From contig NC_088304.1 of NCBI RefSeq assembly GCF_032854445.1, positions 19,665,704-19,729,703 of the forward strand: a stretch of DNA of 64,000 nt, in the 5' to 3' direction. Position 1 is the stretch's first letter. The number at the start of each line of letters is the position of its first letter. The translations under genes were made by a program, and so were the position numbers. The notes below the pieces were generated by a model that was not told the DNA's origin, did not search any database, and worked only from the letters and a program-made list of their open reading frames with translations. Positions 769 through 64,000 of this stretch are shown in pieces. Source of the DNA: Liolophura sinensis. Taxonomy: Eukaryota; Mollusca; Polyplacophora; Chitonida; Chitonidae.

Positions 769-1034
769 CACAGTGTGCTTCGGAATAAAATAATCTCGAA
801 ACTGGGCCTCGCGTGTGGTAGTATGTACGACACCTAGCGGGAGAACAGTGTAATAGCGGAGAGATTCCAACGTGGCTGCCTCGGTGTAGGGCATGTGACC
901 TTTGTCTGTCAGTCGTGGAGGTCGTTCTCGTCCAATCACAGCGTCGATCTCCTGCTGAATCTTTTTCATCACATCCGGGCGGTGCAAAAGGATAAGAAAG
1001 AAGGCTAGTACAGAGATGCTTGTTGTGCCCAGGC
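769..1034 (-). CDS. P450 coding exon 4 (I-helix end to K-helix)
   Basis: The exon is preceded by a pyrimidine-rich acceptor ending TTTTGACAG and ends at ...AAGCACACTGTG before the donor GTAAGG. It enters in phase 1, completing the split Gly of the I-helix motif, and leaves in phase 0. It encodes GLGTTS, the J helix (HRPDVMKKIQQEIDAVIGRE), the MPYTEA block and ExxR (E353, R356), then FRDYFIPKHTV, the beta strand before the meander. It is 88 codons long without stops. An upstream in-frame GTG makes a longer reading frame, but the splice acceptor defines the true start. Confidence 0.92.
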
Positions 1035-4000
1035 CTGTCAAAATGAGAAGAAAAAAAGAGACGTGAATTTCTATAAATCCATATTTATTGAATCCGTTAT
1101 GCGTGCATGTACCAAACACAGGCTAACTTTTAAATCAAATATAGGTCTGCCAAGCAAGTATCTATTAAACCGGATAGAGGACTGCCAAAGAAACATCTCA
1201 CAAATCGAAAATAAGTCTGCTAAACAAGAATCTCACAAACCCAATATAGGTCTGCCAAACAAGTATCTCTAAAACCTATTGTAGATTTGCCAAACAAGCC
1301 TCTCACAAACCGCATATAGGTCTGCCAAACAAGCCTCTCACAAACCGCATATAGGTCTGCCAAACAAGCCTCTCACAAACCGGATATAGGTCTGCCAAAC
1401 AAGCCTCTCACAAACCAGATATAGGTCTGCCAAACAAGCCTCTCACAAACCGGGTATAGGTCTGCCAAACAAGCCTCTCACAAACTGAATATAGGTCTGT
1501 CAAAAAAGCCTCTCACAAACCTGATATAGGTCTGCCAAACAAGCCTCTCACAAGCCGAATATAGGTCTGCCAAACAAGCCTCTCACAAACCGAATATAGG
1601 TCTGCGAAACAAGCCTCTCACAACCCGAATATAGGTCTGCCAAACGAGCCTCTCACAAACTGAATATAGGTCTATCAAACAAGCCTCTCACAAACCCAAT
1701 ATAGGTCTGTCAAATAAGCCTCTCACAAACTGAATATAGGTGTGTCAAACAAGCCTCTCACAAACCGAATATAGGTCTGTCAAACATGCCTCTCACAAAC
1801 TGAATATAGGTCTGTCAAACAAGCCTCTCACAAACCGGATATAGGTCTGTCAAACAAGCCTCTCACAAACTGAATATAGGTCTGCCAAACAAGCCTCTCA
1901 CACACCGGATATAGGTCTGCCAAACAAGCCTCTCACAAACCTGATATAGGTCTGCCAAACAAGCCTCTCACAAACCGGATATAGGTCTACCGACATACAT
2001 CTTACAAACCGTATACAGGTCTGCCAAAGCTGCATCTTACAAACCGTATACAGGTCTGCCAAAGCTGCATCTGACAAACCGGATATAGGTCTGCCAAACA
2101 AGCCTCTCAGAAACCGAATATAAACACAACTTGTGGTCAAGTAACAGAAACGTTTTGGTTACAGGGGATGTAATTAAGTAACTTCTTGTAGTTAGCTTTG
2201 TTCGGGAGACGATTATTCGGTTTCGGAGATGCTTGTTTGGCAGAGATTTATTCACTTTGGAAGAGGCTTATCCAACAAACCTTTCTTTGGTTTAATAGAA
2301 GATTGTCTTGTTTGGAAGATGTATTTTAGGTTTTGGAGATGGTTATCTGATAAGAGACTTACTTTTGGCGGTGTTCTCACACCATTTACATGTATTTTTC
2401 AAAGTGTCCACCCTAATTTTTCTCATTTTTTTGGACAGATATTAGCAGTGCTGAAAACAAGGTATTACATTTCTCTCCCAGTTTTTTTGAAAAGTAAAGA
2501 CATGAATAAACTAACCATGAGAAAAAAAAAGAGAAATTATATATTAATGGTACAATTAGAGGTATATTGGCGAAGAAGAACAGGATAGGTGTCCCGAAAA
2601 TTAGAAGAATTAGGGTAGTGGTTCGCCAGGAAACTCCGTTGGCGAACTTTGTTCCTCTGCCAGACATCTTCACATTATTATCAGTTCTTTTTCGCTGCGT
2701 TTTAGGCTGAAGGAATGAAAGAATGGCCTCTGATATAGCGATAATGCTGCAAGACTCTCCGTTGGATTTTAGGCAGACAGCATGAATCTGTACGGATTTA
2801 CGGCGACTGGTTTCTTGATCTGGCGTAGAATGTAGATATAGTAAATCAGAATTACCTTGTATTTTGGGTGAATGAATAGCAAGCACTGCAGTGTACATGT
2901 GAGTAGCCTACCCGCACTGACTATCTCCCGCACAATGCCCCGGATGTTGTCGTCTTTCAGCCACGGCGATTCTGATTGCAGCCGTAAGAGCTCGTTCACA
3001 CATCCTCCGGAGGACTCCGAGTCAAACCTTTCCTGGAAAGAACACATTTATATGCTTTGTTTATCTCTTTACTAGATACACAGTATAATAGACGCACGGT
3101 TCGATAACGTAGTCAAAGAAAGAGCTAAACAAACAACAAATGTATCATGAGTTTCGGTTGTTTAAGCCCTTGCGGTATTTATTTATTCATTGATTATTCA
3201 CATGTGTAGTTTGCACATCTGTTTATTTTTAACTGGTGGTTTTTTTTGTACATGTGTGTAATTCTTTTGTAAATATGTGAACGTTTTGTAGAAATTGAAT
3301 TTTTATTTGCACATATGTACAAAAGATTTCCACAAGTACAAAAGATACACACGTGTTTACACAAGATTTTCACATACGTATACAAAATTTCCGCGTGTGC
3401 AAAAATTTTCACATCGGTACAAAGATTTTCACGTATGTACAGAGACTTTCACATACGTGCCAAAGAATGTTATATACATGTATGTATAAATAATGACAGG
3501 TATGTATAAAAGACTGAGAGATATGTATAAAAGAATTTTACATGTACATTTTCAAATTTACATCAAAACTATACGTATGTACAGTTCTTTTGCACATATG
3601 TATAACAGAAAAAATATATTTTTGGCATTAACAGAAAAAAAACATGTACAAATTAGTTAGCCGTAAACGGTCCTGCTACTCAAACAACTCTCGGGTTTAA
3701 AAATGCTTAACACTTATTTTAGATGACTTGTTTGAGATAGTCACGGAAGAGTTATATCGGCTTAAGATTTTTATAAGAATAGTAAAATTAAATTATGATT
3801 GCTGGCCCATATTTCTACAGAATTATGGTTACCGAAAGATGCTTTCTGCCCAATTTCAATCGCAGACAAAATATTTTGCAGAGGTAAAAAAAAATCCGTA
3901 CAGTCCCATTCCTACCTTCGGGATCTCGAACATGAAATACAAATATCTCTCGAAAGCTCGTTTATGATCTCGATACAGCCGTCCGTACCCAAAGGGAAGA

Positions 4001-7000
4001 TGACGTAAGAAGGGAAACAGGGTCATCACGTAAACAATTTGACCCGTCAGGATCTCAAGATCAACGCGCTCAAAATCTATAGCGGCCTGAACAGCGGGAT
4101 GGCCGAGTGGGTAGCGCTCTCCTGTCATCTGAAGTACAAGGTTAGATCATTTTATTACCACTGATAATTTTTAAATGAAATAATACCTTTAGCCTGTAAT
4201 TAGTTTAGACTTGGCTGCGGCTTTTATTCACGATGTTTTTTGATGACTGGCGAAGGTCGCTGCTTTCCTCCAGACATAAGGGTTTTCTGACTATATATAA
4301 ACCTCACCATCATAACATACAAAATACACTTCTTCTGTAAAGCAAATTTATGTTCTTTCCAACACGAAGTCTTCTATGATATTTGAACAACTCTATCTTG
4401 TGTACAATTAACACAAGTTCTTGTGCTGAAAGAATTGAATTTGGATGTTGTACACAATACTTGTTGTAAAATATAGAAGCTTTTGCTGTTTTGCATAAAT
4501 GACCTCATTTTGCTTTAACACAAGTTTGTGTTTTATTATTTTGTAACACAAACATGTTTACTTCACACTTACTTCACACATGTTCATGTTGGGATAACAT
4601 ATTTCTGTGTGGAATGAGAACAACAAAAGCGTTTTTTGTGCATATAAGAAAATTCTTTAGTGCAGCCTCAAACACAATTGAAATAAATAAATAAATAAAA
4701 ACATTGGCATGGAAATGCGTAAGGTAGGGTCAACAATTCGTGAAAACTGTTATGATTGAAAGCACAGCATAGGGAAGATATTGACGTTGTACGGGAGGAT
4801 GACATAGCTGAGGTGACTTATCAGAATGGTGAGGATATTGGCCAAAGACGGGAGGATGACAGAGCTGAGGTGACTTATCAGAATGGTGAGGATATTGACC
4901 AGGGACGGGAGGATAACAGAGCTGAGGTGACTTACCAGAATGGTGAGGATATTGACCAGGGACGGGAGGATAAAAGAGCTGAGGTGACTTACCAAAATGG
5001 TGAGGATATTGACTAGGGACGGGAGGATGACAGAGATGAGGTGACTTACCAGAATGGTGAGGATACTGGCCAAAGACGGGAGGATAAAAGAGCTGAGGTG
5101 ACTTACCAGAATGGTGAGGATATTGACCAGGGACGGGAGAATAAAAGAGCTGAGGTGACTTATCAGAATGGAGAGGATATTGACTAGGGACGGGAGGATG
5201 AAAGAGCTGAGGTGACTTACCAGAATGGTGAGGATATTGACTAGGGACGGGAGGATGACAGAGATGAGGTAACTTACCAGAATGGTGAGGATATTGACTA
5301 GGGACGGGAGGATGACAGAGCTGAGGTGACTTACCAGAATGGTGAGGATATTGACCAGGGACGGGAGGATAACAGAGCTGAGGTGACTTACCAGAATGGC
5401 GAGGATATTGACCAGGAACGGGGGGATAACAGAGCTGATAACAGAGCTGAGGTGACTTACCAGAATGATGAGGATATTGACTAGGGATGGCAGGATGACA
5501 GAGCTGAGGTGACTTACCAGAATGGTGAGGATATTGACCAGGGACGGGAGGATGACAGAGCTGAGGTGACTTACCAGAATGGCGAGGATATTGACCAGGA
5601 ACGGGGGGATAACAGAGCTGATAACAGAGCTGAGGTGACTTACCAGAATGATGAGGATATTGACTAGGGATGGCAGGATGACAGAGCTGAGGTGACTTAC
5701 CAGAATGGTGAGGATATTGACCAGGGACGGGAGGATGACAGAGCTGAGGTGACTTACCAGAATGGTGAGGATATTGACTAGGGACGGGAGGATGACAGAG
5801 ATGAGGTGACTTACCAGAATGGTGAGGATACTGGCCAAAGACGGGAGGATAACAGAGCTGAGGTGACTTATCAGAATGGAGAGGATATTGACTAGGGACG
5901 GGAGGATGGCATAGGTGAGGTGTCTTACCAAAATGGTGAGGATATTGACCAGGGACGGGAGGATGACAGAGCTGAGGTGACTTACCAGAATGATGAGGAT
6001 ACTGACTAGGGACGGGAGGATGACAGAGCTGAGGTGACTTACCAGAATGGTGAGGATATTGACTAGGGACGGGAGGATGACAGAGATGAGGTGACTTACC
6101 AGAATGGTGAGGATATTGACTAGGGACGGGAGGATGACAGAGCTGAGGTGACTTACCAGAATGGTGAGGATATTGACTAGGGACGGAGGATGACATAGGT
6201 GAGGTGACTTACCAGAAGGGTGAGGATATTGACCAGGGACGGGAGGATGACAGAGCTGAGGTGACTTATCAGAATGGTGAGGATATTGACCAGGGACGGG
6301 AGGATGACAGAGCCGTGGTAACTTACCAGAATAGAGAGGATATTGACTAGGGACGGGAGGATGACAGAGCTGAGGTGAGTTATCAGAATGGTGAGGATAT
6401 TGACCAGGGACGGGAGGATGACAGAGCCGTGGTAACTTACCAGCATGGAGAGAATATTAGCCAGGGACGGAAGGATGACAGAGCTGAGGTCGAAGGGCTC
6501 TGTTTTGGTGTCTCTAATAATCTGTACGGTCTCTTCTAACTGCTTACGAGTTATCGTCTCAAACTGGTGATGTGGGTCATCGAACCGCTTCAAAGTTTTC
6601 ACCATGAAATTTCGCTGCAGCTTCCAAATCTCGCCGTAGTCCATAAAGGCTGTGGACGGACCACGGTCGCAATAGCTGAGATGACTTACCAAAATGGTGA
6701 GGATATTGACCAGGGACGGGAGGATGACAGAGCTGAGGTGACTTACCAGAATGGTGAGGATATTGACTAGGGATAGGAGGATGACAGAGCTGAGGTGACT
6801 TACCAGAATGGTGAGGATATTGACTAGGGACGGGAGGATGACAGAGCTGAGGTGACTTACCAGAATGGTGAGGATATTGACTAGGGATAGGAGGATGACA
6901 GAGCTGAGGTGACTTACCAGAATGGTGAGGATATTGACTAGGGATAGGAGGATGACAGAGCTGAGGTGACTTACCAGAATGATGAGGATACTGACTAGGG

Positions 7001-7926
7001 ATAGGAGGATGACAGAGCTGAGGTGACTTACCAGAATGGTGAGGATATTGACTAGGGACGGGAGGATGACAGAGCTGAGGTGACTTACCAGAATGGTGAG
7101 GATATTGACTAGGGACAGAGGATGACATAGGTGAGGTGACTTACCAGAATGGTGAGGATATTGACTAGGGACGGGAGGATGACAGAGCTGAGGTGACTTA
7201 TCAGAATGGTGAGGATATTGACTAGGGACGGAGGATGACATAGGTGAGGTGACTTACCAGAATGGTGAGGATATTGACCAGGGACGGGAGGATGACAGAG
7301 CTGAGGTGAGTTATCAGAATGGTGAGGATATTGACCAGGGACGGGAGGATGACAGAGCCGTGGTAACTTACCAGCATGGAGAGGATATTAGCCAGGGACG
7401 GAAGGATGACAGAGCTGAGGTCGAAGGGCTCTGTTTTGGTGTCTCTAATAATCTGTACGGTCTCTTCTAACTGCTTACGAGTTATCGTCTCAAACTGGTG
7501 ATGTGGGTCATCGAACCGCTTCAAAGTTTTCACCATGAAATTTCGCTGCAGCTTCCAAATCTCGCCGTAGTCCATAAAGGCTGTGGACGGACCACGGTCG
7601 CAATACCGCGCGTAGAAGCTATCCGGGCGTCCAGCGAAAACGTCCCTAGTCTCTTCGGACAAGAAGGCTTCCCGAATCGCCTTTGCACTGTTCAGTACGA
7701 CGACCTTTGTCTCCATCATCGTAATAGAGCAAACATCGCCGAACGGCTTGGTAACACGGGTGACGTTCAAATGAGCATTATTTGAGTAAATGCTCAGAAA
7801 ATTACCTAGTATCGGCAAGCCTATGGGCCCTGGGGGGAATTTGTAGCGCCTGTATTTGATTCTCCTGTACAGCAAGAAAAAGACTGGTATTGTTACGGCC
7901 AAAGCTAACGTCAAGAAAATAGCCAT
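769..7926 (-). CDS. Cytochrome P450, CYP2 clan, four exons, 3' end outside window
   Basis: The gene encodes a heme-thiolate mono-oxygenase of the ER membrane; its substrate cannot be read from sequence. Coding exons on the minus strand are 7926-7372, 4128-3916, 3032-2912 and 1034-769, with GT..AG introns in phases 0, 0 and 1, giving 385 residues. An N-terminal membrane helix (about 3-20) is followed by the hinge PPGP (31-34), C-helix WKLQR (W124, R128), the I-helix and the K-helix E353-S-L-R356. The GEIWKLQRNF and PFDL blocks and the phase-1 intron cutting the I-helix motif are CYP2-like. About 110 residues, including the PERF region and heme cysteine, must lie left of position 1. The I-helix reads A-G-L-G-T-T, so the usual acid before Thr is glycine. 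Introns 1 and 3 are mostly minisatellite. A complete gene is likely, but a decaying copy cannot be excluded. Confidence 0.9.
1130..2115. repeat. 35-bp minisatellite in P450 intron 3
   Basis: About 28 head-to-tail units of 35 bp contain AGGTCTGCCAAACAAGCCTC followed by TCACAAACCGAAT. Units differ by scattered single-base changes. The array fills about half of the 1.88-kb intron between P450 exons 3 and 4. Because 35 is not a multiple of 3, the open frames across it are short, and they look like by-products of the array rather than genes. Confidence 0.93.
2206..2365. repeat. Inverted degenerate copies of the 35-bp unit
   Basis: On the plus strand this segment contains GGAGATGCTTGTTTGGCAGA, GGAAGAGGCTTATCCAACAA and GGAAGATGTATTTTAGG. 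These match the reverse complement of the 35-bp unit (GAGAGGCTTGTTTGGCAGAC). About four diverged units run opposite to the main array, separated from it by about 90 bp of other sequence. Confidence 0.6.
2912..3032 (-). CDS. P450 coding exon 3 (start of I-helix)
   Basis: The acceptor GTTCTTTCCAG precedes GAAAGG at 3032, and the exon ends at 2912 with the first base of a split Gly codon before the donor GTAGGC. It encodes 40 full codons (residues 257-296): ERFDS (the usual KxxFDP-like element), a linker, and the helix I start DDNIRGIVREIVSAG. Joined to exon 4 it gives A-G-L-G-T-T-S. Phase 0 in and phase 1 out matches the neighbouring exons exactly. Confidence 0.9.
3240..3625. repeat. Degenerate ~20-bp repeats in P450 intron 2
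   Basis: Variants of GTACAAAGATTTTCACGTAT and ACATATGTATAAAAGA recur at about 18-22 bp steps, with strong divergence between copies. This is an old, decayed tandem array in the 883-bp intron between exons 2 and 3. Confidence 0.6.
3916..4128 (-). CDS. P450 coding exon 2
   Basis: The acceptor TTGTACTTCAG precedes ATGACAGG at 4128, and the exon ends AAG at 3916 before the donor GTAGGA. It has 71 codons (residues 186-256), phase 0 at both ends. MTGERYPLGHPAVQ follows the exon 1 end as the FGxRF element follows NVIC in CYP2 proteins. LTGQIVYVMTLFPFLRHLP matches the F/G helix region (FPWLRYLP type). The ATG at 4128 is an internal methionine, not a start. Confidence 0.9.
4129..4768. other. P450 intron 1, 3' part, no feature seen
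   Basis: AT-rich intron sequence between the 57-bp array and the acceptor of exon 2. ACACAAGTTTGTG-like motifs (about 4400-4600) recur loosely, but I see no coding sequence, SINE or clear tandem array. Confidence 0.5.
4769..7419. repeat. 57-bp minisatellite built from the P450 exon 1 end and its splice donor
   Basis: There are about 42 units of 57 bp (19 codons), a few with 12-bp insertions (near 5429 and 5617) or 1-bp deletions (near 6180, 7110, 7230). On the minus strand each unit corresponds to the last 48 coding bases of exon 1 (residues 170-185, LSSVILPSLANILSML) plus the first 9 intron bases GTAAGTTAC. By eye roughly 34 units keep the CTG|GTAAG or TTG|GTAAG donor and about 8 have GT changed to AT. 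Since 57 is divisible by 3, long frames such as the 488-codon minus-strand frame at 4730-6196 are by-products. Confidence 0.95.
6350..6674 (-). pseudogene. Duplicated fragment of P450 exon 1 inside the minisatellite
   Basis: Nearly identical to 7281-7605 at a fixed offset of 931 bp. The copy includes coding sequence for residues 108-185 (CDRGPSTAFMDYGEIWKLQR onward), the donor site (exon end 6441, GT at 6440-6439) and flanking array units. The one difference I noticed is GAGAATATT against GAGGATATT. The copy stops inside the exon at CGCAATA, where array sequence resumes. It lacks the exon 1 start and an obvious acceptor, so it is a pseudo-exon. Confidence 0.93.
7372..7926 (-). CDS. P450 coding exon 1 (N-terminus to B-D region)
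   Basis: The ATG at 7926 opens 185 codons ending ...NILSML at 7372 before the donor GTAAGT. The N-terminus MAIFLTLALAVTIPVFFLLY is a signal-anchor helix, followed by basic residues (RRIKYRRYK) and the PPGP hinge. FAGRPDSF and GEIWKLQRNF (C-helix, heme propionate Arg128) fit CYP2 spacing. The last 48 bases are the seed of the 57-bp minisatellite that follows. The frame stays open past the donor as far as 7222, so two further array donors would be in frame, though one of these is mutated. Confidence 0.93.
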
Positions 7927-8930: not shown

Positions 8931-9540
8931 CACCCAAACAGTAATTCAGTCGCTTGGATTTGGTATATAGTCACCCTTGTAGATTAATATATAGTATTGT
9001 TTTCTCATCGAATGTCACTTTTTCTTATTTTTATTCCATTAACCTTGCCAAAGCTGATCGTGATTGCATTCTGCTGTTGTATTTCTACTATATAATATGT
9101 ATATAAAGACATATTTTTTTTCACTTGTCAATGCTTTCACAGTGACACTCGATAATAAATTTCCATATCTCAGCGTAAATATCATACTTTACTATCAAGT
9201 CACGTATATGTACCATTCTAGTTTCGTAATGAAGTTACTTATTTGGATCTTTGTAATATACTACTTATTGAATATTATGTTTTTGTATCAATTAATTTTC
9301 CCCCACCGTTTATAAATAAAATCAGTAAGGAAGATTTCCTTTGTAAATGTTGTAAACAATATCAGTACCATTTTGGTATTGTATATTATTTATTGATTTG
9401 AAATCTTTTTTCGTTGTATTAGCGTCGTAGTCTGGCAATTTAGTACTATGTGCTCTAAGTGCCCTGTCTAATTGTAAGTACTCGCTGATTGTATATACTA
9501 GTGTCATCCTTTTGCTGTAACGTGGTGATATACACCAGTA
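8931..9540. other. AT-rich DNA, nothing recognised
   Basis: AT-rich sequence with hydrophobic-looking short frames typical of base composition. No domain, repeat or RNA gene is recognised. Confidence 0.4.
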
Positions 9541-9549
9541 CCCCAGGGC

Positions 9550-11110
9550 TTTCCCATCGAAATAACTTGTCGTGTTGTCACATTGACGCAAGGTGTTTAC
9601 TCACGCAAGGCGATGACCAGCTTTCCCCGAACTTAAAAGCAGATGTGATATCAACTGTTCTTTCACATGAATATCACTTTGACTTCATCTGTGTCAGTGA
9701 AACCTGGCTAAGTTGCGAAATTTCAGACGACTTAGTATATATTAATGGGTTTTTTGAGAGAAATAAAAGATTGGAATAGACATGGAGGAGGCATAAAATA
9801 TGTCTTAATGTCACTCGACGAAAAGGTTTGGAAAATTAAATGGTGTTGATCAACTTGAAATATAATGATAAACATGTGTTTATTACTGTCTGCTATCGCC
9901 CGCCTAATCAATCTGCTAATGAACGGGAGCTCTCCATAACTAATCTAAATGATTCTATTATAACTGTCTTAACAGAACACCCAGATGCCGTTTTAATTTT
10001 GGGAGACTTCAATGACAAATACACCAAATGGGACGACTTCCATGACAAGAGTAAACTAAAAATTAACTAGTTTGACTTGATTACGGTAAACAATCTCTTT
10101 AAGCTTATTGACAGATCTAGGGCTTGTAAAAGACGTGTTTGGAACTTCAAATGTGCCGAATTAGTCGGTTAATTCCATCTCCTATCTGTTACACCATGGG
10201 ATATTATTGGTGAAATCTTTACTGACATGAATGATAAAGTTTATGTTTGGTATAAATTATTCCTGTCATGTTTTAATGAATGTTTACCAAACAAAACTGT
10301 CACAATTCGCCCTCGTGACAAACCCTGGATGACGAATGATATTAGTTTTGAACTACGGATCAGAAATAGATGCTTTAAAAATTCAAACATACCAAAAAGA
10401 GAGGAAGACACATTCCCGTTCTATATTGCCAGACTTGAAGCTAATACTGCTAAACGAAATGCAATATTGCGTTACTCTGAAAATTTGCGTTACTCTTAAG
10501 ACAGAAAAACGTACTGATCAGTGATGAAATCTTTATTTGCCCCTAACACAAAGCCCCCAAATCCTCCTCTTAATCTTAACGGAGAAAATGTGTCGAGCAA
10601 CAAGGACAAAGCTTAGGAATTCTGCAGCTTCTTTGCCTCCCATTCCATTCTACCGCAAACAGTACCCTTTTTACATACGTTACCAACTCACAATTTCACT
10701 GCATATAAACCAGTGAAAAGGAAGTAACTTATTTTCTTAAAAATCTAAGTACAGAAAAGCGCCTGGTGGTAATTGTATAAGTAACTTCGTATTCAAATAC
10801 AGTGCTGAAACATTGCCCTATCTCTAACTAAAACTTTTTTCATTTTTATAGTCTGGAGTATTCCCGACTTCAGGGAAACTCTCTCATGTTAGCCCAGTAT
10901 TTAAGAAAGGGGTTAGGCTTGGTATCTCAAGCTGTCGATCGGTATCTCTACAACCTTCTCTTTCTAAAGTTTTGAGAAAGTTGTATATAAACACCTGTAT
11001 GAATATTGTATCAATAAATATCTTCTCATGCCAAATAACTCTGGATTCAAACAAGGAGACTCTACAATAAATCAATTAATGAAGGTAGCTCATATAATTT
11101 ACCGAAGTGG
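9550..11110 (+). mobile_element. Broken non-LTR retrotransposon (endonuclease plus partial RT)
   Basis: Pieces of an apurinic-like endonuclease domain are readable in shifting frames: HIDAR.LL then FDFICVSETWL, a GGGIKYV stretch in another frame near 9785, then VCYRPPNQS and ILGDFND near 9895-10015. Next comes the linker (KPWMTNDI..R.RNR) at 10320-10370, and finally the RT start (SHVSPVFKKG near 10890, SVSLQPSLSKVL near 10945, NQL..AHIIYRS near 11075). Frameshifts near 9775 and 9835 and many stops show it is dead; the rest of the RT is missing. The order fits CR1/jockey-type elements, but the clade cannot be fixed by eye. Confidence 0.85.
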
Positions 11111-40780: not shown

Positions 40781-41857
40781 TGTCAGCTTCCACCATCTCT
40801 TACTGCTTGTGGGGACATTAAGCAGACCACGATGCTCATGTGGCGTATGGCACAGTCTAATAGTTATAGAAGGGTGCTTGTTTTCCACCCATCTCTCATT
40901 GCTTGTGGTGACATCAAGCAGTTCACGATGCTCTTGTGGCATATGGCACAGTCTGATATTTATTGAAGGGTGCTTGTTTTCCACCCATCTCTCATTGCTT
41001 GTGGTGACATCAAGCAGTTCACGATGCTGTTGTGGCGTATGGCACAGTCTAATAGTTATTGAAGGGTGCTTGTTTTCCACCCATCTCTCATTGCTTGTGG
41101 TGACATCAAGCAGTTCACGATGCTCTTGTGGCATATGGCACAGTCTGATATTTATTGAAGGCTGCTTGTTTTCCACCCATCTCTCATTGCTTGTGGTGAC
41201 ATCAAGCAGTTCACGATGCTGTTGTGGCGTATAGCAGAGTCTAACATTTATTGAAGGCTGCTTGTTTTCCACCCATCTCTCATTGCTTGTGGTGACATCA
41301 AGCAGTTCATGATGCTGTTGTGGCATATGGCACAGTCTGATATTTATTGAAGGCTGCTTGTTTTCCACCCATCTCTCATTGCTTGTGGTGACATCAAGCA
41401 GTTCACGATGCTCTTGTGGCATATGGCACAGTCTAACATTTATTGAAGGCTGCTTGTTTTCCACCCATCTCTTATTGCTTGCGGTGACATCAAGCAGTTC
41501 ATGATGCTGTTGTGGCTTATGGCACAGTCTAATATTTATTGAAGGCTGCTTGTTTTCCACCCATCTGTCATTGCTTGTGGTGACATCAAGCAGTTCACGA
41601 TGCTGTTGTGGCATATGGCACAATCTAATAGTTATTGAAGGCTGCTTCCTTTCCACCCATCTCTCATTGCATGTGGTGACATCAAGCAGTTCATGATGCT
41701 CTTGTGGCGTATGGCACAATCTAATATTTATTGAAGGCTGCCTGTTTTCCATGTGTGGTACACATATATATAGGCTTACAACATATGTAGGAAAGTTCCT
41801 CAGTGGCTTGCACAAGGCACTCTGGTTTGGTCTACCTATAAAACTGATCACCATCAT
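40550..41857 (-). CDS. Open frame of ten 32-residue repeats, possible repeat protein
   Basis: 435 codons with no stop. A 35-residue start (MMVISFIGRPNQSALCKPLR...) is followed by ten 32-residue repeats of the form ENKQPSINIRLCHMPQ then QHRELLDVTTSNERWV, and a unique 80-residue tail. Cys-His and Trp positions are conserved across units. A multiple-of-3 unit lets a minisatellite stay open by chance. I see no TATA box, splice site or homology that makes it a gene. The start overlaps an old SINE 3' remnant at 41805-41895. Confidence 0.25.
   Translation of the reverse strand: MMVISFIGRPNQSALCKPLRNFPTYVVSLYICVPHMENRQPSINIRLCHTPQEHHELLDVTTCNERWVERKQPSITIRLCHMPQQHRELLDVTTSNDRWVENKQPSINIRLCHKPQQHHELLDVTASNKRWVENKQPSINVRLCHMPQEHRELLDVTTSNERWVENKQPSINIRLCHMPQQHHELLDVTTSNERWVENKQPSINVRLCYTPQQHRELLDVTTSNERWVENKQPSINIRLCHMPQEHRELLDVTTSNERWVENKHPSITIRLCHTPQQHRELLDVTTSNERWVENKHPSINIRLCHMPQEHRELLDVTTSNERWVENKHPSITIRLCHTPHEHRGLLNVPTSSKRWWKLTIPIGKRITYVPDVFVQCRLNHFFLCVYLRNPCLNENINNIIHMVNLPTLYVWNKTYMYYCLNHSNFEKLCVEVAYF
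40788..41751. repeat. 96-bp minisatellite, 10 units
   Basis: Ten units of 96 bp contain TTTTCCACCCATCTCTCATT, GTGGTGACATCAAGCAGTTC and TGGCATATGGCACAGTCT. Variants CTCTTGTGGCATATGG and CTGTTGTGGCGTATGG alternate in parts, hinting at a 192-bp higher-order unit. The plus strand has shorter open frames; the minus strand is fully open. Confidence 0.95.
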
Positions 41858-54699: not shown

Positions 54700-54778
54700 C
54701 TTCACCCGTACACTGAACCAAATGTGCACAAGTAATATATGCTTGAGAATGTTGTTAAACCCCTGCAAAATAAATCAT
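54700..54778 (+). mobile_element. Ancient SINE 3' remnant at the zinc-finger acceptor
   Basis: GCACAAGTAATATATGCTTG, AGAATGTTGTTAAACCCCTG and CAAAATAAATCA resemble the SINE 3' core plus tail (TATAAGTGAAATATTCTTGA, GTACGGCGTTAAACACC, AAATAAAT). It ends about 20 bp before the splice acceptor of the zinc-finger exon. A shorter look-alike (GCTTGAGTATATCATTAAAC) lies at about 54253. Confidence 0.4.
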
Positions 54779-54799
54779 ATCTGTTTTTAATTTTCACAG

Positions 54800-57700
54800 A
54801 AATGGAATCCACCAGTTCCCATGCAGTCCCCCAAAATGAGATGAAGGATGAAGAACAACAACTGATTCCACCTAAAGGACATTTGGCTCAAAATCACACC
54901 CAAGACATGGGTGTAGGTACGAGTACAAACCCAGCTTCTGAAACTTCGACATGTGATGGTGATGAATACCTCAGTAAGGTACAAATTGGTGGGCACAAAA
55001 GTCTGGGCTCTATAGGAGGTAGTTTAAGCCAGTGCAGTGATGCTGACCCTGGGCGTGTTAGTGAATGTGCTATTCCTGATAGGGAACCCATAATCAGTTC
55101 TGAAAGTCAGTCTGGAACATCTTTAAAGGAGACAGAATCAAGGAAAGCTCAACCTGCAACCAATAAAGAGAACAAAGATCCAGAAGAATCGACACCTCGC
55201 AACACAGAAACCAATGCAAAAAGTCATTCTACCAGTACTTCTACAAACGAAGGCATTGCTCAACCTTCTGACACATCCGAAGTCAACAAACTGGATGAGA
55301 CGTCACAGGGAAGCAGTAGTCAAGGTCGTATTGGAGCAGAGGATGACAAGACAGGAACCTCTGATATTCTGGGGAAGAAGTCAGTAGAGGACAATGCATC
55401 TGAGAAAGCTTCGCAGAGAGAAGGAGAAATTCCTGCTAGGAAAAGAGACACTGCTGACACAAACACTGAGGTGGCAGACTTTGTTTGCAATTCAAGCACT
55501 GCACAGCTGGAGTTGGAAACGACCACACCATTTGAAGGAAAGTCTTCAGCTGATGTTGTGAATGCCAGTGAGAATTCAAACAACTTTGCTGTTGACCAAA
55601 ATGCATCCAAAAGTTGTGATGCCAAGATAAATACTGTAATTGGTGAGCTTGACACAAACACAGCTGAAAAGGTTGATGGAAATAATGGGAAAGCACCGTG
55701 GAGTTCAGGCGAACCTATGGCGCATGGACCAACGAACACTAACATTAGTGCTAAGCCGTCTCTAATTACTTCGTTGGCATTTCTTCGTGATAGCCAGTCA
55801 GAAGAGGATAGTGAGGATGAGTCTACCTTGAAGATTGATGAAGACAAAGCCTTGGAAGGATCGGAAACCTCCATGAATGCCATAAGTGAAGGACTGGACA
55901 AAAAACAAGATGAATCCTCTAGCAGTATATGTACAGACAAAAGTGGTGGTGACTTCGGTGCACCAGATGGTGAATCAGACACCTCAAGAAACCCTCAAAC
56001 AGAAGACATCCCTCAGGGGTCTGATGGGAAAAATTTGCTTCCTAATGATAGCATCAGGCTGCGAGATCTGAAGATAAAATTAGAAAAGTTCAAAGAAATC
56101 AACAGAACTTGGCAAAGGAGAAAACCTGAATTAAATTCAGAAAAGTCTGGAAGGTCAACTCCTACACTGACCAGGACAAATATTTTTGACGCATTAAATG
56201 CTTCTCTTCCAGCGACATCCGAAGATTCAACTGACACAAATGTGCCTGAGCCAGGAGGCTCAAAAGAAAATTTGATCAATGAATCAGAAAGGGACACATC
56301 TGCCTCTTCAAATAACAACCCTGAGCAGACAAATGTTACGGATATGTTGGAAAAGTCACCAAACGTATCTTCGAATCACTGCAAACAAACGGAAGCCACT
56401 GAAGTACACGCGTCTTCAGGTTCCATTATAGAAGGAGATGCCATTGTTCCCTCTGACAAGAATATTGCACGTGATAACGGTAGTACCATAAGTATGGTGC
56501 GGAAAGAACTTGAAGCACTTACCAATCTGCTTAGTGAGGAGCCTGTTCAGCAGTCAATCGAACATGCCAAGGACAGCACATCGAAACCAGATCCTGCCAA
56601 CAGTGTTAAGCTTACGAGTGAAGCTGACAATAACTGCCCCAGTGCGACAGAATTGAGCCAGGCAGAGCCAAATGGAAGCAGCAGTACGAACCATGGAAAA
56701 GAATTAGTCACAACTTCAGTCCTAGCAAGTCCATCTGCAGACCAGAACTGTACTGAACATGATACCGCTGCGAGCAAAGGGTCCGAAAAGACACCTAGCG
56801 ACAGTGCAATACCGTCCACACTTTCGGCTCATGAGCCCTTAGAAGATGAAGAACAGAACATGAGAATAGCCGAGATATTCACCTTGCATGAGAATCCAGA
56901 AAAGTCAACCACATCAGCCAAGAACAGCGCCCTCCATATGAATAAGGAGAACCCTACAGTCAGCTCCAAGACAGTTGGTACAGCATCAAACGAGTCTTTG
57001 CTTGATATATTAAATAAGAGTGCTGATGATCCATCAGCTCCACTAAAGCGAACACCTCAGAAACCTGCTGAAGTAAATTGGCCTGACTTCGGAGTGAAAC
57101 GCTGTCAGCGATGCAGCTTCACAACATCGGATGACGCTATTCTGCAAGTGCACACATGCAAACGAACCATGGGCGGAATTTCTGCTTCATCCACTGAGAA
57201 GCCTTCTCCAACTACAGAACTTCTCAGATCTAGCCAAAGTCGATTACCCAGCGTTAACCCAGAGACACAATCACAGAAATCCAGTAAGGACGGTGACCTT
57301 TCTTCTGCTTCGCCTGTCACAAGGAAAAAAATATACATGCCTCCACCTTCACCAAAAGTACAAAGGGGCATTAATTGTCGAATTGTTCGAATAGATAAAA
57401 CCCAGTATCTGTGTACTATATGTAACTACCGAGCAAGTTATGCCCTTTTCATTGGTCATCTAGTTGAGCACATGATTGAATATCCATATACATGTCCTCA
57501 CTGCACATCTCCAGGAACTCTATATTTTCAGCGGTGTTCTGATGTAACTGCCCACATAAATACTCATAAGAGTGCATCTCACAAGTTTAGTATGTTCGGC
57601 TATACAGCAGCAAAAGAATTTCTGGACCGATTAGCAAAAAGTGGAGCAGAGATATTGTCTAATATTTGGATAGACCCGAGCGTGAAAGTGTCTGAAAAAG

Positions 57701-60700
57701 TTTCCGATCCAGCGGGCCTATTGCCACCTGTAGCGAAGCCCTATATGACACCCACAACTACAATATCCCAAACAGGGACAAATTTAAGCACGACCAAATC
57801 TTTGACACAACCAGTTTTTTCGTCTGTGCCAATACCTAAAAGCATTCCAACAACACCGGTTTCATCGCTACAAAATTTTTCGCCGTCTCTAGTGTCGCCG
57901 CCTGCTACAGCGACAAGCTGTTCATCTACTGTACGTGGCGTCGGACCATTTAACGTACTTCATCAGGGCAGTGTGCAAGTCCAGAGGACTGTGGTTCCTA
58001 CATTGGTACAGTCGGGACCTATTGCTGGAAACCCTCTGCTATTGCTTGTTCCTTCTGCAACGGTTGGCCAAGGCGCAGTGGTTCAACAAACTGCAACATT
58101 GCCAAATATTATTCCAACAGTCTCCATGCCAAATGCAACTAGACATCCCCACAATCAAACTGTCTGGTCAACACAAATGCAGCAGTCATTGCCAACAAAT
58201 GTTCAGCAAAGAGAGCAACCAGCAAAATCAGACGTCGCATCAAAACCGAGCTCAGCTTGTGAACCCAGAGCTGCAATTCAACAGAATTCATCCAAATCGC
58301 CCAATATTCATAAGAAAACTAATAATACAAAAGGTGTTACTGTCGGCAGAATAAGAGACAACATGTTCTGTTTTGGTTGTAACTACAAAACTGTTTCAGA
58401 GGCTGAGTTCAAGAACCATATCTGGAAACATTTACATGGGAATAATACACATTGTTCTCATCAGAGAGGTCCAGGGGATCCATCGTCAACGCTTTACTGT
58501 CCGTTTATGGAGAAAATTTATGCCGCTGTGCCTGTTATAAGTTCAGGAAGTATGTCAACCACTGGGTCGCAAGGGCCTTCCAAACAGAAGAGTTCATCAA
58601 CAGAGGGTCAGAAAGACACCACATCACAAGTTGAAGGCGTATCTATGAAGTCCGAGAAAAAAGAAGACAACTCTGTGAACGAGGAGGATGACAGTGATTG
58701 CGAGATCATTTCTGTTGGTAAACCTAAGCCTTTGTGCATTGATCTCACGGAGGACGAATCGTCCTCATATGCTGAAGCAGCAACTGAAATTCAGAAGCAA
58801 GAAGGTGAAAGCAAATTAATGATCCAATCATCATATTCCTTAAATACAGAAAACAGCACAGCTGTAGATAATAAAGTTTCGCTAAGTGAAAACGTCAGGA
58901 CAAATGTAACTAATGGAATGGGGCAAGAAGTGGAACAACAGGCTACAGCAAATGAACAAAACGCAACCTCGCCAAAACCGCCACAACCTGGGGGATCGTC
59001 TCAGAATAATGCAGTTAGAGATTCCATGTTTTATGTGTGTGGCTTTTCAAACTGCAAATTTTCCGGTATCACATCTGAACAGTTCAAGCATCATCTTCTT
59101 ATACACCACCAAGGAGCAAGCCAATATCCATGTGCCCACTGTGGTCACAAAAATCCTGGAGAAGAAGAGCTGTTTCGTCACATGCTGAGCCACAGTTCTG
59201 CAAAGGTCTTCCTTTTATACAAGTGTGGGTTTACAAAATGCCGTTTTGGGACAAATCTGATTTCGGAATTTCAGCAACATAATGACATCTTTCACAACGA
59301 TGCCGAGTCTTTCACATGCGCGTCTTGCAAGTCGAATTATTCGTCACTAGCTGCTCTCTGCAGCCATTTTACAGCCAGCCTTCTGAAATTTGTACAATGC
59401 CCCTACTGTAGTGTGAAAACTAAAGATAGAAGGACTATCCTGCAGCATATTGGGCAAACACATCCAGACAAACCGCGGCAGATAACTGTTACGTCTCAGC
59501 TGATATGCAGTTCAATTAATCAGGAGAAAAAAATGTTAACTGAGAAAAGCCACCAAAGTCCTGATGAAGCTGCCAATGGTCCTCTTAGAAAAAACCAAAA
59601 ACCTTCAGTCGACACACCTACAATGACTGCGTCAGTTGACACCTCAGACAAAGCTACATCGGATGCTCCAAACACCAGCCAAGCCACTCTGTCAGACAGA
59701 CTTCAAGAAGCAAAGAACCTTCGATGCCTCCTTTGTTCTAAGGTCTTCAAATCTGTCGCTGAACTTACTAAGCATTATGGAAGTTCTCACAAAGGTCCGC
59801 ATGAATTAACTATTCATGACTGTAAATTCTGTAAGTTTAGCACAAATGACACCGTTCACATGGAAAAGCACATGGCCGATTTCCATCCAAATGAATTAAT
59901 GCTTTACAAATCAACGAAGAAATTCATTCCTCGGAAAGAATTTAAATGCCAAGTCTGCACGTATGCTACGTTCTGTCCGGAAGAGCTATCTGAGCATTTT
60001 AACAGCCACGAAGTTGTTTATGTACAATTCGAAACTGCATCCATAGATCCTGCTGCATTAGGTAAAATCAGTAAGTTTACTTGCCGAATATGCGAAAAGA
60101 ACTTCGAACGCTATGCAAAACTAGCAGCACATACATATAATAAGCATCCTGATGTGAAAAGCATCCAGGTATACAAGTGTGAACTTTGCGCCTTCTTGTC
60201 TACAGCTTTGCGTGCAACTTTTCAACATTGCAACAGGGCGCACTCCGGTAAGGAGAAAATTCTTCGTTTCCAACGCGTTATAAACCGTGCTTCTGAACCA
60301 AAAACGATACCAACAGATTCTTCTGAGCACGATTTTAGTGTGCATTGGTTTCACTGCGAAAACTGTTCCTTCAGTTCAAGTATTCGGGAAGACCTTCTGG
60401 AACATCTAAAATCTCATAACACAGCTGATGATTCTGCTAAAACCTCTAAGGAAAGCCCCCAGTTGGAGAAATCCACGGAAAATAAGGAAAGCGTGGACGT
60501 CCCACCTGAAGGTGTACTGAACTCTAGTATGAAGTGTCCTCACTGTCAGTATTCTACAAAAGTAAAGGTCAACCTTTTCCGGCATATGAAACATCACAAG
60601 TCTACAGACTTCTCTTCCATCAATGATAACAACTTCAATGACCTTCCATGGAAAACGTCACCTGTGAAAAGCGTACCTAAAAATGACACGTCTTCTCCAA

Positions 60701-62828
60701 ACAAAAGTAAGGAACATTCTCCTGACGCCAAAGGAAAACTTGAACAGCACAACGATGAACCTAAAGTGTCGCCAAATTCTCTGAAACATGGGAAATACGA
60801 CATTCGTCCTACAGGATCTCCCACCAAATCTGGACAAGAATTTTATAAGTGCCGACTTTGCTCATTCAAGGCATCAAATATACAGAGTTTGTCCGGACAT
60901 CTGAGCTCCCACAAGTCAACCACATACCAGAAGTGCTCATATTGCCCCTATAAATGCACCACCAAGTCAGTGATGATTAAACATCTCAAAAAACGACACA
61001 AGAATATGCCTAGAAAATATGACAAAGCTACGAACGTTTTGTGTGCAGAGACCAGCAGCCCTGATGGAAAGCAGTCTGCTGCAAAGAGAAAAGCCCATGA
61101 CAGCACAGAATCTCCGGCGAAAAAACTAAAAGGCAATGTCACTGACACTCCTGCATATGAATGTGTGTTGTGTGGTTTTAAAACTAAGACCATTAATGCC
61201 TTAGAGGAGCATTTCAAGAAACGTCACGACGTCAAAGCTTTCGTGTGCAGCCGATGTAAATTCAACACCTTGAGATTATTAGATATGGAGGAACATTTAG
61301 AAACTGTTCATAATCAAAAGCAGATGTTATACAAAATGTCTGATGTGAATTCTTCCCCAGCTAAAAGCGATGGTGTCCTTTCAAAACAGCACATGAAATG
61401 TGGACTCTGCTCCAGTATCACGGCTTCCAAACCTGCCCTAATTGAACACTCTCTCCTCAAACATGGTGTCGATGTTAAACCAGTGATGTCTCCTGTTCAG
61501 GTGCATAAATGTGTTGACTGCGGGAGGCGTTTTAGACATAGACAGGAGGCGAAGGAACACAATGACGGATGTATGAAAAGAGTCCTGAAAGAAAGTGAAC
61601 GGACGGCTGCTTCTGAACAAGCCAAGCAGAGCACTTCTGTGGAGACAGACTCGAATGATAAGATACCGTCTCCAATTCTGACAGGTGTCTTTCCAAAAGA
61701 CGAGTCCACCCCTGTGAAGGAGAAACCTATACATCCTTCGAGTAACAAAAACTCCCCTAAAGAAAACTTTAACAATGAGGACAAATCTAACGAAGGTCTG
61801 CAATCACTTGAAAGTTCCCACAGCAAGGACTTGGAAACACCGCTCATGTGTCATTCCACAGGTTCCAGAGAAAAGTACAAGTATTTTTGCCATTTATGCG
61901 AACATTCCGTATTGTCCAGACGAAGAATGAAAGAGCACTACTTCGTACATTTTAAATACTACCCATACAAATGTGTGTACTGTCCAAAAGTGGCTTCCAG
62001 GGCTGATCGTCTTCATAAGCATATTTTGCGTATTCACCCAGGAAAGGTGTTGGATTCCAAGCTACGCAAAAATGAACAATTTGAGTTGAAAATTGACCGG
62101 TTGCTCAAACAGAAAAGACAATTATTATCCGATGTAGAAGGAAATCCTGATGACAAAAAAGAGAAACAATTAAAAGCTGAGAAGAGCTCTCCCCAAGGTA
62201 GGTACAGTAGAGGGAGCACTCCGCTGTGGGCAAAGCGAGACTATGATCCATCGAATCCATTTCATTGTGAACATTGTAATTTTACCACTCGGAACAAAAG
62301 CAGTCTCCAGAATCACATCATCTTGCATAGTCCTCCGAGAATTAAATGTCATATATGCAGTTATACAGGACATTTCCCATATTTAATGAAAAGACATTAT
62401 GAAAGATGGCACCCTGGTAAAGAGGTGGCTTTCACCCGGATTCAGTCCGAAGATGATACCCTTCATAACTCTACCCCGCTGCCTGCTGAAGCCTCACTTC
62501 CTGGTTACAACCCACTGTCCGGCTTAGAAAGTTCAAGATCAAGTCCTACAACTAGCACCTCAGGTTTGAAAAGGAAAGCAGGGGAAAGCTCTCCTGATAT
62601 GGACAATTTCAAAATTATAGCGGATGAGGATTCAGAGTCAAAAATTTTGGCGCATTTACCTTTGCAGGAACTGTATGAAAAATACCAAGATGAAACAGGA
62701 AAAACAGCGTTCAGGTGCTTAATGTGTGCTTTTTGCAGTCATACTTCAGGACTTATTGCAGCACATATGTACAAGCATATGCCCAAGTGTTTTCAATGCT
62801 GCTACTGCAACTACAGGGCATATCCAAG
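54800..62828 (+). CDS. Zinc-finger gene, 8-kb coding exon
   Basis: A single uninterrupted exon of 8029 bp. The frame is also open upstream of the acceptor to 54739, but the residues there (MLENVV...) come from intron and old SINE sequence. The exon ends at CCAAG|GTGGGT in phase 2, inside the last finger after CCYCNYRAYP. Reading on past 62828 gives 50 unrelated residues to a stop at 62979, which is intron. Only two exon bases precede the ATG, so the 5' UTR is in an upstream exon. Confidence 0.92.
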
Positions 62829-64000
62829 GTGGGTTCCATTTATATCTACGTGTATTGCTCGAATAATTGTGGTTCATTGTCTTCTGATCTGTGATCCAAG
62901 AAAAGACGCCATTCCCGGTATTAGGTGCACCACTTTCTCGCGGTTTGAACGGTCAAAGATTGTGTATTTGACCCGCTAGTTAGCAACACTTGGCGATAAA
63001 AGATTCACTCAACTTTAAAATAATAAAATGAAAATAAAGTCAAAGAAAATGATATTAAAAAAAAATCAAAGAACAAAATTATTCATTCGACTTTCTCTGG
63101 CTCTGAAGTGCATACCGGTACCTGAAATGCTGTTTTCGAGAAATACTTTTTCGAACGATTTGATCTGCCTAAGTTATCCCAATGGCGTGTTTAGTTAAGC
63201 TTGAACTAGATTCCTGTTTAGATTGGGGATGTCATTTTGGGGATGCGCAGTCCACCAGCAGAAATGAAGATTATGGTTATGTGGAAATAAGGGAAATGAC
63301 AGCAAAGAACATTTTTAATCTTGCATATTTTGCGGCTCAAATTTACCATTATATTTTATGCATATTTTCCGTCAATGTGTGGGCATTTTCACAAATGACG
63401 TGATCGGTGGACCCGCGGGATTAGCAAGCTATCCGTGTTAGCATCACAACGGCAGCCTGCTTAATTTCCAAACTGACCGCGCAGGCCACAGGAAGATTAT
63501 CATTCAATTTTCACTACATACACACAAAAAAAGAAGGATTCCCCAACCCACCCCATTTTTCTCTTTTGAACGTCCTAAAAGTGCATGTTAACATAAAAAA
63601 AACTTACGTGTCATGTATCCTTTAAAAAAGAAGTATCCCTTTCAGTGTCGATGACTTGACATTTTTTTCCGAAGGTCAGCAGTGTTCTTACCTAAAATAT
63701 GTTCTGTTTCAGCTCCAGTATTACAGCTCATATGAAACGAAGCCATGAAGGTGAACCTCGCAGATTTAAGTTCTTCGAGGAATTGGCGCTCCTACAATAC
63801 AACCAGATGCTAGCGACCATAGGTAAATTGCCTTTCGAAATGCCCAAGACTAAAAAGCGCAGGATCTCGTTGGATATTAATGGCGAAACCAGCAGTAGTG
63901 ATGAATCTGATTCAGAGAAGAGTAGTAAATTTCAGATCCCCACGGATTCGAAGAAATGGAAAAGTTGCGTTAAGGAGGGGAAATTTTCGGACACGGGCCC
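54800..64000 (+). CDS. Very large multi-C2H2 zinc-finger nuclear protein, 3' end outside window
   Basis: Likely a DNA-binding transcriptional regulator. The exon starts after TTTTAATTTTCACAG at 54799, with ATG at 54802. The first exon runs to 62828 (2675 codons plus 2 bases); after the intron it joins 63713, open to the window end (at least 2771 residues). Residues 1-760 are Ser/Thr/Glu-rich and probably disordered. About 28 C2H2 or C2HC fingers follow, at roughly 767, 869, 897, 1188, 1411-1531 (five), 1640-1910 (seven), 2015-2235 (six), 2360, 2389, 2487, 2514, 2637 and 2664. Most are isolated or paired, without TGEKP linkers, unlike KRAB-type arrays. A SUMO-interaction-like segment lies at about 1301-1319, and basic NLS-like clusters at about 2095-2110 and 2720. 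The architecture recalls ZNF462, ZNF407 or REST-like proteins, but I cannot name an ortholog. Confidence 0.93.
62829..63712 (+). other. Intron of the zinc-finger gene
   Basis: 884 bp from GTGGGT to TATGTTCTGTTTCAG. It contains a Kolobok-like element end. The 73-codon frame at 63182-63403 has no recognisable domain. Confidence 0.9.
63340..63625 (+). mobile_element. Kolobok-like element, right part, in zinc-finger intron
   Basis: TGCATATTTTCCGTCAATGT, CACAAATGACGTGATCGG and CTGCTTAATTTCCAAACTGA match 26873-26917 and 27558-27588. The right end TCATGTATCCT is followed by TTAA (63622-63625), an intact copy of the expected target duplication. The left end is not clear. Confidence 0.7.
63713..64000 (+). 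CDS. Zinc-finger gene, second coding exon (continues past window)
   Basis: The first base completes the split codon (AG|C, Ser). SSITAHMKRSH then supplies the two histidines of the last finger, C-x2-C-x12-H-x4-H, which independently confirms the splice. A basic stretch KTKKRR (about residue 2720), a Ser/Asp/Glu cluster (SSSDESDSEKSSK, CK2-like) and further charged sequence follow. No stop before the window end. Confidence 0.92.

Follow-up and report, generated by a model that had tools for sequence, protein, structure and literature searches.

A minisatellite founded on an exon end and its 5′ splice site in a chiton cytochrome P450 gene, and similar arrays at junctions of further genes in that genome

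Most of intron 1 of a CYP2-like cytochrome P450 gene in the chiton Liolophura sinensis is occupied by a 57-bp minisatellite whose unit is the end of the gene's own exon 1 together with the adjoining 5′ splice site (donor). The gene lies on the minus strand of the DNA analysed here, a stretch of 64,000 nt from contig NC_088304.1 (positions 19,665,704 to 19,729,703), called the window below. The array is exonic in origin and confined to a single locus, the gene that carries it is intact, its copied donors are on paper as strong as the real one, and other genes of the genome have the same architecture. We consider it probable, at roughly 0.8, that the array is a donor-side equivalent of the "mirages" described in amphioxus, multiplied by minisatellite turnover, nearly neutral and spliced mainly from the first donor. 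A short stretch over the exon 1/intron 1 junction would have been duplicated in tandem, and the copies would have multiplied and become homogenised inside the intron by unequal exchange or slippage, as is ordinary for minisatellites, with one 931-bp duplication taking 234 nt of exon 1 along. Splicing would use mainly the first donor, the remaining copies would be cut out as part of the intron, and the array would be close to neutral, a by-product of vigorous minisatellite birth. Arrays founded at a junction may persist because a duplication across the donor spares both the upstream exon and the first donor. Tolerance by normal first-donor splicing is suggested by the intact gene, by the seven other genes that are built alike and by the amphioxus precedent.

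The gene model comprises six predicted exons separated by GT-AG introns, with exons 5 and 6 beyond the left edge of the window. Joined, they give a predicted protein of 497 aa that matches Pfam p450 over residues 31–492 (E 2e-93) and has CYP2D6 as its best PDB match. The heme-binding signature of P450 enzymes, FxxGxRxCxG, is present as FGTGKRACFG (exons 5/6, outside the window), and the p450 domain is complete. In the assembly, the authentic exon 1/intron 1 boundary of this model is intact and reads ...ATATCCTCTCCATGCTG/GTAAGTTACC at 7372/7371. The last residues of exon 1, ...SLANILSML, end at residue 185 with a complete codon (phase 0), at CTG/GTAAGTTACC.

Downstream of this boundary the tandem repeat takes up 80% of intron 1 (2,607 of 3,243 bases). 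Each unit consists of 50 exon-1 bases and 7 intron bases and therefore spans the exon-intron boundary with its splice signal; the first-pass annotation, made from the letters of the window alone, had given 48 and 9, which is equivalent because the dinucleotide AC is common to both sides of the join. Scanning the donor position yields 42 slots from 7371 down to 4821, 34 with GT and 8 with AT, the authentic donor counted. The earlier figures of about 42 copies and some 34 good donors are thus correct when the real junction is included. The 9-mer CTGGTAAGT occurs in 31 slots, among them the real donor and the donor behind the internal exon copy. The array is of the minisatellite type, with 57-bp units of which 41 rows can be aligned, and its consensus matches the exon tail and donor except at 7 of 57 positions. 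Units 3, 5 and 18 are 56 bp long, one base short, and units 27 and 30 are 12 bases longer. The last unit is the most divergent, yet it ends in ATGCTG like the exon, which the internal units, the exon copy excepted, do not. A genome search with 361 array bases, in which very common words are skipped, gave 11 matches, all of them within the P450 array.

It had been noted earlier that the array fills intron 1. This stands for four-fifths of the intron, but the 234-nt copy of exon 1 that the 931-bp duplication carried into the array had been overlooked. The duplicated block has a single mismatch to the original over its first 326 nt, and beyond these the units flanking the exon copy differ from the units beside the real exon. 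Such near-identity and a HiFi depth of only 14x (PMC11068029) would speak for an assembly error in array length or in the internal exon copy. We regard such an error as very improbable, since the mean HiFi read of 8,347 bp is long enough for the 2.6-kb array (PMC11068029), the two sets of units diverge past the first 326 nt, and the junction origin is independent of copy number.

Whether the exon founded the array or the array invaded the exon can be decided from the paralogs. A genome search with exon 1 returned 36 matches, and the junction was examined in 18 fetched loci besides the P450 gene itself (L002 and L004–L020), 17 of which gave a tblastn match (L017 gave none). Of these 17, 15 have a GTRAGT or GTRAGC donor where the exon should end, although at L019 the position is extrapolated from an alignment that reaches only to residue 109. 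The remaining two, L016 and L018, lack an intron there. On the other side of the intron, all four other genomic matches to exon 2 begin directly after CAG at the homologous codon. Because the exon end is conserved in 15 of the 17 paralogs, it is the exon that founded the array. At the level of predicted genes the comparison shows that the exon tail is genuine P450 sequence, that the intron is old and that the array derives from the exon 1/intron 1 junction. The proposal that the array was born at this junction is thereby borne out: residues 170–185 are real CYP sequence, and the same junction, sought in related P450 genes, was found. Invasion of the exon by the array is ruled out by the conserved CYP exon tail and the conserved junction, and creation of the intron by the duplication is likewise ruled out, as paralogs without an array share the intron position.

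No exon-tail array was seen in the first 1.4–1.5 kb of the 15 paralog introns. Three of them, in L008, L009 and L011, contain a single echo of the donor region of 17–19 nt: exactly 17 nt at about 310 nt into intron 1 in L009 and L011, which also have 11-base matches, and 19 nt at 89% at about 365 nt in L008. These echoes perhaps resemble the first step of a junction array. As for other members of the family, L016 and L018 (C6:36.26–36.29 Mb) lack the exon 1 intron and hold the entire P450 domain in a single open frame, and a further paralog, L027 (C10:32.70 Mb), has an intron 1 array of its own (55 bp x 18, L027:1860–2829) that does not come from its exon end.

The array could also be imagined as coding, with 19-aa leucine-rich repeats that lengthen the P450, and long open frames do cross it. 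These open stretches, found in two of the three minus-strand frames, are to be expected, since the unit is a multiple of 3 and lacks stops in those frames. Reading on from exon 1, however, the frame stops at 7224, the 56-bp units break it, and exon 2 resumes the P450 fold without repeats. A coding repeat was rejected, and we give it hardly any credence. The earlier remark that a multiple-of-3 unit keeps the frame fails for the same stop at 7224 and the three 56-bp units.

Similar arrays occur elsewhere in the genome. The genome was searched for three CAGGTRAGT sites spaced 37–67 bases apart, with the reversed, GT-swapped and GT-swapped reversed 9-mers as controls. The donor pattern gave 516 + 698 matches, compared with 188 + 94, 151 + 151 and 117 + 98 for the three controls in that order. 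Single sites numbered 19,904 for the donor 9-mer and 7,585, 13,870 and 10,295 for the controls, and the matches per single site were 0.061 as against 0.037, 0.022 and 0.021. In C1:1–18.84 Mb, the matches listed fall into 18 loci for the donor pattern, 4 for its reverse and 3 for the GT-swapped control, where 12.0, 4.6 and 8.4 are expected from the genome-wide single sites (chi-square p 0.04; binomial p 0.014). The share of 9-mers that sit in arrays may accordingly be higher for the donor than for the controls, but the excess is suggestive only, because the controls are unmatched for gene position, the matches are clustered and the counts come from about the first 100 matches listed. Extrapolated genome-wide from 18 loci per 100 such matches, there would be about 218 donor-array loci versus about 54 and about 30 for two of the controls. 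A looser 7-mer pattern (3,289 + 3,681 matches versus 2,963 + 3,062 for its reverse) is too unspecific to bear on junctions.

The 5′ flanks of all 18 donor-bearing arrays were read, and seven of the arrays begin with the end of an exon that belongs to a recognisable protein. These are the high-affinity choline transporter SLC5A7 (L041, PDB E 7e-14), a BTAF1/Mot1-like SNF2 protein (L033, E 2e-18; the PDB entry is named helicase-like protein, and we take it to be BTAF1/Mot1), 2-oxoglutarate dehydrogenase or OGDH (L037, E 4e-20), BMS1 (L042, E 2.5e-25), ABCC1-3 (L048, E 2e-15), the RNA polymerase III subunit RPC1 or POLR3A (L040, E 8e-9, no Pfam match) and an iron-hydrogenase-like protein, presumably CIAO3/NARFL (L046, Pfam E 3e-13, PDB E 1e-7). 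Each of these seven arrays has the exon end and its donor as repeat unit, and exon tails of 28–51 nt, taken as the longest tail agreeing at 80% or more, agree at 80–91% with the array consensus. Their periods are 64, 48, 52, 59, 52, 44 and 40, and hence no frame rule for unit length applies. The next exon was located beyond the array in BMS1 and ABCC; next-exon motifs tried for SLC5A7, OGDH and BTAF1 had no match within the fetched stretch. A junction origin was not shown for the other 11 loci. In L035, for which no named protein was found, and L032 the unit extends back over the first donor, in L038 and L045 the match holds only 3 exon bases, and L043 has no junction-spanning copy. No founding exon end was recognised on reading the 5′ flanks of L031, L034, L036, L039, L044 and L047, of which L044 has an exon-like frame without a Pfam match upstream of its array. 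At L045:1814 an exon-like frame, presumably alpha-L-fucosidase-like (Pfam E only 0.2), stands before a 38-bp x 60 array in which the donor is copied along with almost nothing but intron sequence.

Seven of 18 corresponds to a 95% interval of 17–64%, or about 85 (38–140) junction arrays among the extrapolated 218. The birth of such an array had been called unusual, a judgement that finds no support: the structure is that of the amphioxus mirages (PMC3087553), and of the 18 arrays with donors sampled in this genome, 7 show it. It is conceivable, as a tentative extension, that 5′ splice junctions in chitons are preferred birthplaces of minisatellites and that many genes offer tens of copied donors while still splicing from the first. 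If true, the 85 or so arrays would represent perfect CAG/GTRAGT donors with periods of 37–67 bp alone, and a similar behaviour of weaker donors would raise the number greatly.

Several observations weigh against a near-neutral array spliced mainly from its first donor. The real donor and 30 others have the identical 9-mer and an identical U1 duplex energy of -9.1, so sequence cannot separate them. For 282 nt sampled from the array (about 5 units), the fold is less stable than in 199 of 200 shuffles. As the array RNA sample folds poorly and the donors are equally strong, the decoys look accessible. Among the 41 aligned units of the P450 array (unit 13, which holds the exon copy, was left out) the donor 9-mer ranks 13th of 57 windows, slightly below average in variability. 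Over eight arrays, the P450 one and the seven others, mean ranks lean towards conservation for GTRAGT (0.32; Wilcoxon p 0.055, Kolmogorov-Smirnov p 0.11) and for the donor 9-mer (0.27; Wilcoxon p 0.07, Kolmogorov-Smirnov p 0.02), with the qualification that seven of the eight arrays were selected for perfect donors and that the P450 array, which was not, has ranks of 0.46 (GTRAGT) and 0.28 (9-mer). On the other hand, the G at +1 is non-consensus in 8 of 41 units and is among the four most variable sites, GTAAGT ranks only 29th of 57 six-base windows for low diversity, and over the eight arrays conservation of the GT dinucleotide equals chance (mean rank 0.51). Judged by unit diversity, the comparison shows GT in the array decaying at about the same pace as the rest of the unit.

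Donor competition among the array copies is possible on this evidence, and it could go as far as a splicing rheostat, in which decoys compete with the real donor and the length of the array sets the share of P450 pre-mRNA diverted to a premature stop and nonsense-mediated decay. The decoys are suited to it: besides the 30 other slots with the real donor's 9-mer and the lean of GTRAGT and the 9-mer towards conservation, 32 of the 33 GT decoys, if joined to exon 2, would run into a stop at codon 235 with 77 nt or more still to go to the next junction, and the decoy at 7257 alone keeps the frame to exon 2, adding 38 aa. The array also contains 22 CCCTAG sites with a pyrimidine tract as rich as that of the gene's own acceptors (12–13 pyrimidines in 15 of them, 10–13 in the real acceptors). 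The choice between competing donors is shifted by SRSF1, and hnRNP A1 is cited as acting oppositely (PMC5585400). Intronic variable number tandem repeats (VNTRs) are able to switch splicing, as TERT VNTR6-1 does; its copy number (24–66.5) is comparable, whereas its effect is tied to G-quadruplex expansion and the P450 array consists of copied donors (PMC11830802). Regulation of expression by decoys via nonsense-mediated decay is thus a testable rival. We nevertheless consider it unlikely, given that GT is unconstrained both in the P450 array and over the eight arrays and that the amphioxus mirages are reported not to give rise to aberrant mRNAs (PMC3087553, PMC3902484). Arrays of the same kind also stand in BTAF1-, OGDH-, BMS1- and POLR3A-like housekeeping genes, and BTAF1, OGDH, BMS1 and POLR3A are essential. 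Apart from this question, the CCCTAG sites lie behind their pyrimidine tracts at 5013–7227, and many units hold an acceptor-like site as well as a donor-like one, with 20 nt between the two in the consensus.

A further function would be that of a U1 platform, where repeated donors recruit the U1 small nuclear ribonucleoprotein and either titrate it or keep transcripts from being polyadenylated prematurely within intron 1 (telescripting). In its favour, 34 GTRAGT sites lie within one intron, and three AATAAA/ATTAAA hexamers (4537, 4228 and 4156) are all downstream of the array. The three hexamers in 635 non-array nt of the intron compare with 2.1 expected by base shuffling (P 0.35 for three or more), and the protection against premature polyadenylation suggested in the first-pass annotation finds no support in this. 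Because the array itself puts the real donor 2.6 kb from the hexamers, it would at most repair a self-made problem. Titration of cellular U1 by one intron seems implausible, and we assign the U1 platform a very small chance.

First-donor splicing of a nearly neutral array agrees with what is described for the amphioxus mirages. Minisatellite-like tandem duplications at exon/intron boundaries were found in amphioxus globins and had been reported earlier in Adh3 under the name of mirages, and the Adh3 data together with reverse-transcription PCR on the globins suggest that they do not interfere with regular splicing (PMC3087553); PGBD5 and troponin C were added later (PMC3902484). Like the P450 array, the mirages of Adh3, BflGb6, BflGb9, troponin C and PGBD5 lie next to the authentic boundary, have units within 10–160 bp that take in the end of the exon, the splice site and the beginning of the intron, and evolve in concert, with the ends of the array diverging (PMC3087553, PMC3902484). 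They differ in copy number, which is 3 and 6 units in two BflGb6 haplotypes and 2–7 in PGBD5 as against 42 slots here, and a nested 234-nt exon copy distinguishes the P450 array from them. Our search was aimed at the donor side only. The host is a mollusc (eight tandem haemocyanin units, PF14830, on C8) and so lies outside the known amphioxus range, a difference in host and not in structure. The GFP family, PF01353, had no match in the genome, which is a weak sign in keeping with a host other than amphioxus.

Boundary repeats in other systems are more distant. In human segmental duplications, minisatellites at exon-intron boundaries with possible splicing changes were described, and 27 intron modifications were counted (De Grassi and Ciccarelli 2009, PMC2812944); these have on average units of about 30 bp x 4 and are proposed to create new introns, whereas the P450 array is long and its intron old. 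An acceptor-side tandem duplication created an intron in one case (PMC4974935). It resembles the P450 array in duplicating an exon/intron boundary with its splicing signals, but the P450 array is on the donor side, in many copies and at an ancestral intron position. For an intron minisatellite in an abalone TSSK1-like gene, the available text does not state whether it spans a junction (PMC6905558). Our literature search, a weak one over openly licensed full texts and mostly by listing, gave no mollusc report of junction arrays. As far as that literature goes, mirages in a mollusc, recurring across genes of one genome, are new. Mirages have so far been described from a handful of amphioxus genes, and their presence in several mollusc genes suggests a general route of minisatellite birth at splice junctions. 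How one donor is chosen among several equals is a long-standing question about the spliceosome. The chiton junction arrays are natural introns in which one real donor has up to tens of copies behind it, and offer a natural test of donor choice.

Table 1. Features of the P450 gene and its intron 1 array (window positions).
Feature	Position	Strand	Basis
P450 exon 1, ATG to ...NILSML, phase 0 end	7372..7926	-	gene model and paralogs
Exon tail founding the repeat unit, 50 nt, ACCTCAGC...ATGCTG	7372..7421	-	array consensus comparison
Authentic 5′ splice site CTG/GTAAGT	7366..7374	-	common to 15 of 17 paralogs examined
Intron 1, 3,243 nt	4129..7371	-	gene model
57-bp tandem repeat with 42 donor slots (34 GT, 8 AT), the authentic donor counted	4765..7371	-	
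Last 234 nt of exon 1, copied into the array (931-bp tandem duplication)	6441..6674	-	
Exon 2 (MTGERYPLGHP...)	3916..4128	-	gene model and exon 2 matches
Exon 3	2912..3032	-	gene model
Exon 4	769..1034	-	gene model

Tandem repeats occur outside intron 1 as well. Over positions 1–64000, tandem arrays (period of at least 20, at least 5 copies) account for 12.2% of the sequence; an Rfam scan of the window gave nothing reaching the gathering score. Intron 3 of the same P450 gene contains a second minisatellite (1139–2122, 35 bp x 28), about 105 bp before exon 4, with no exon origin recognisable by eye. A 96-bp x 10 array at 40788–41751 lies within a minus-strand open frame of 444 aa. By eye, the single 2,747-aa open frame at 54736–62979 has many C2H2-like zinc-finger motifs, and the open frames at 9489–10499 resemble an endonuclease/reverse-transcriptase retroelement.

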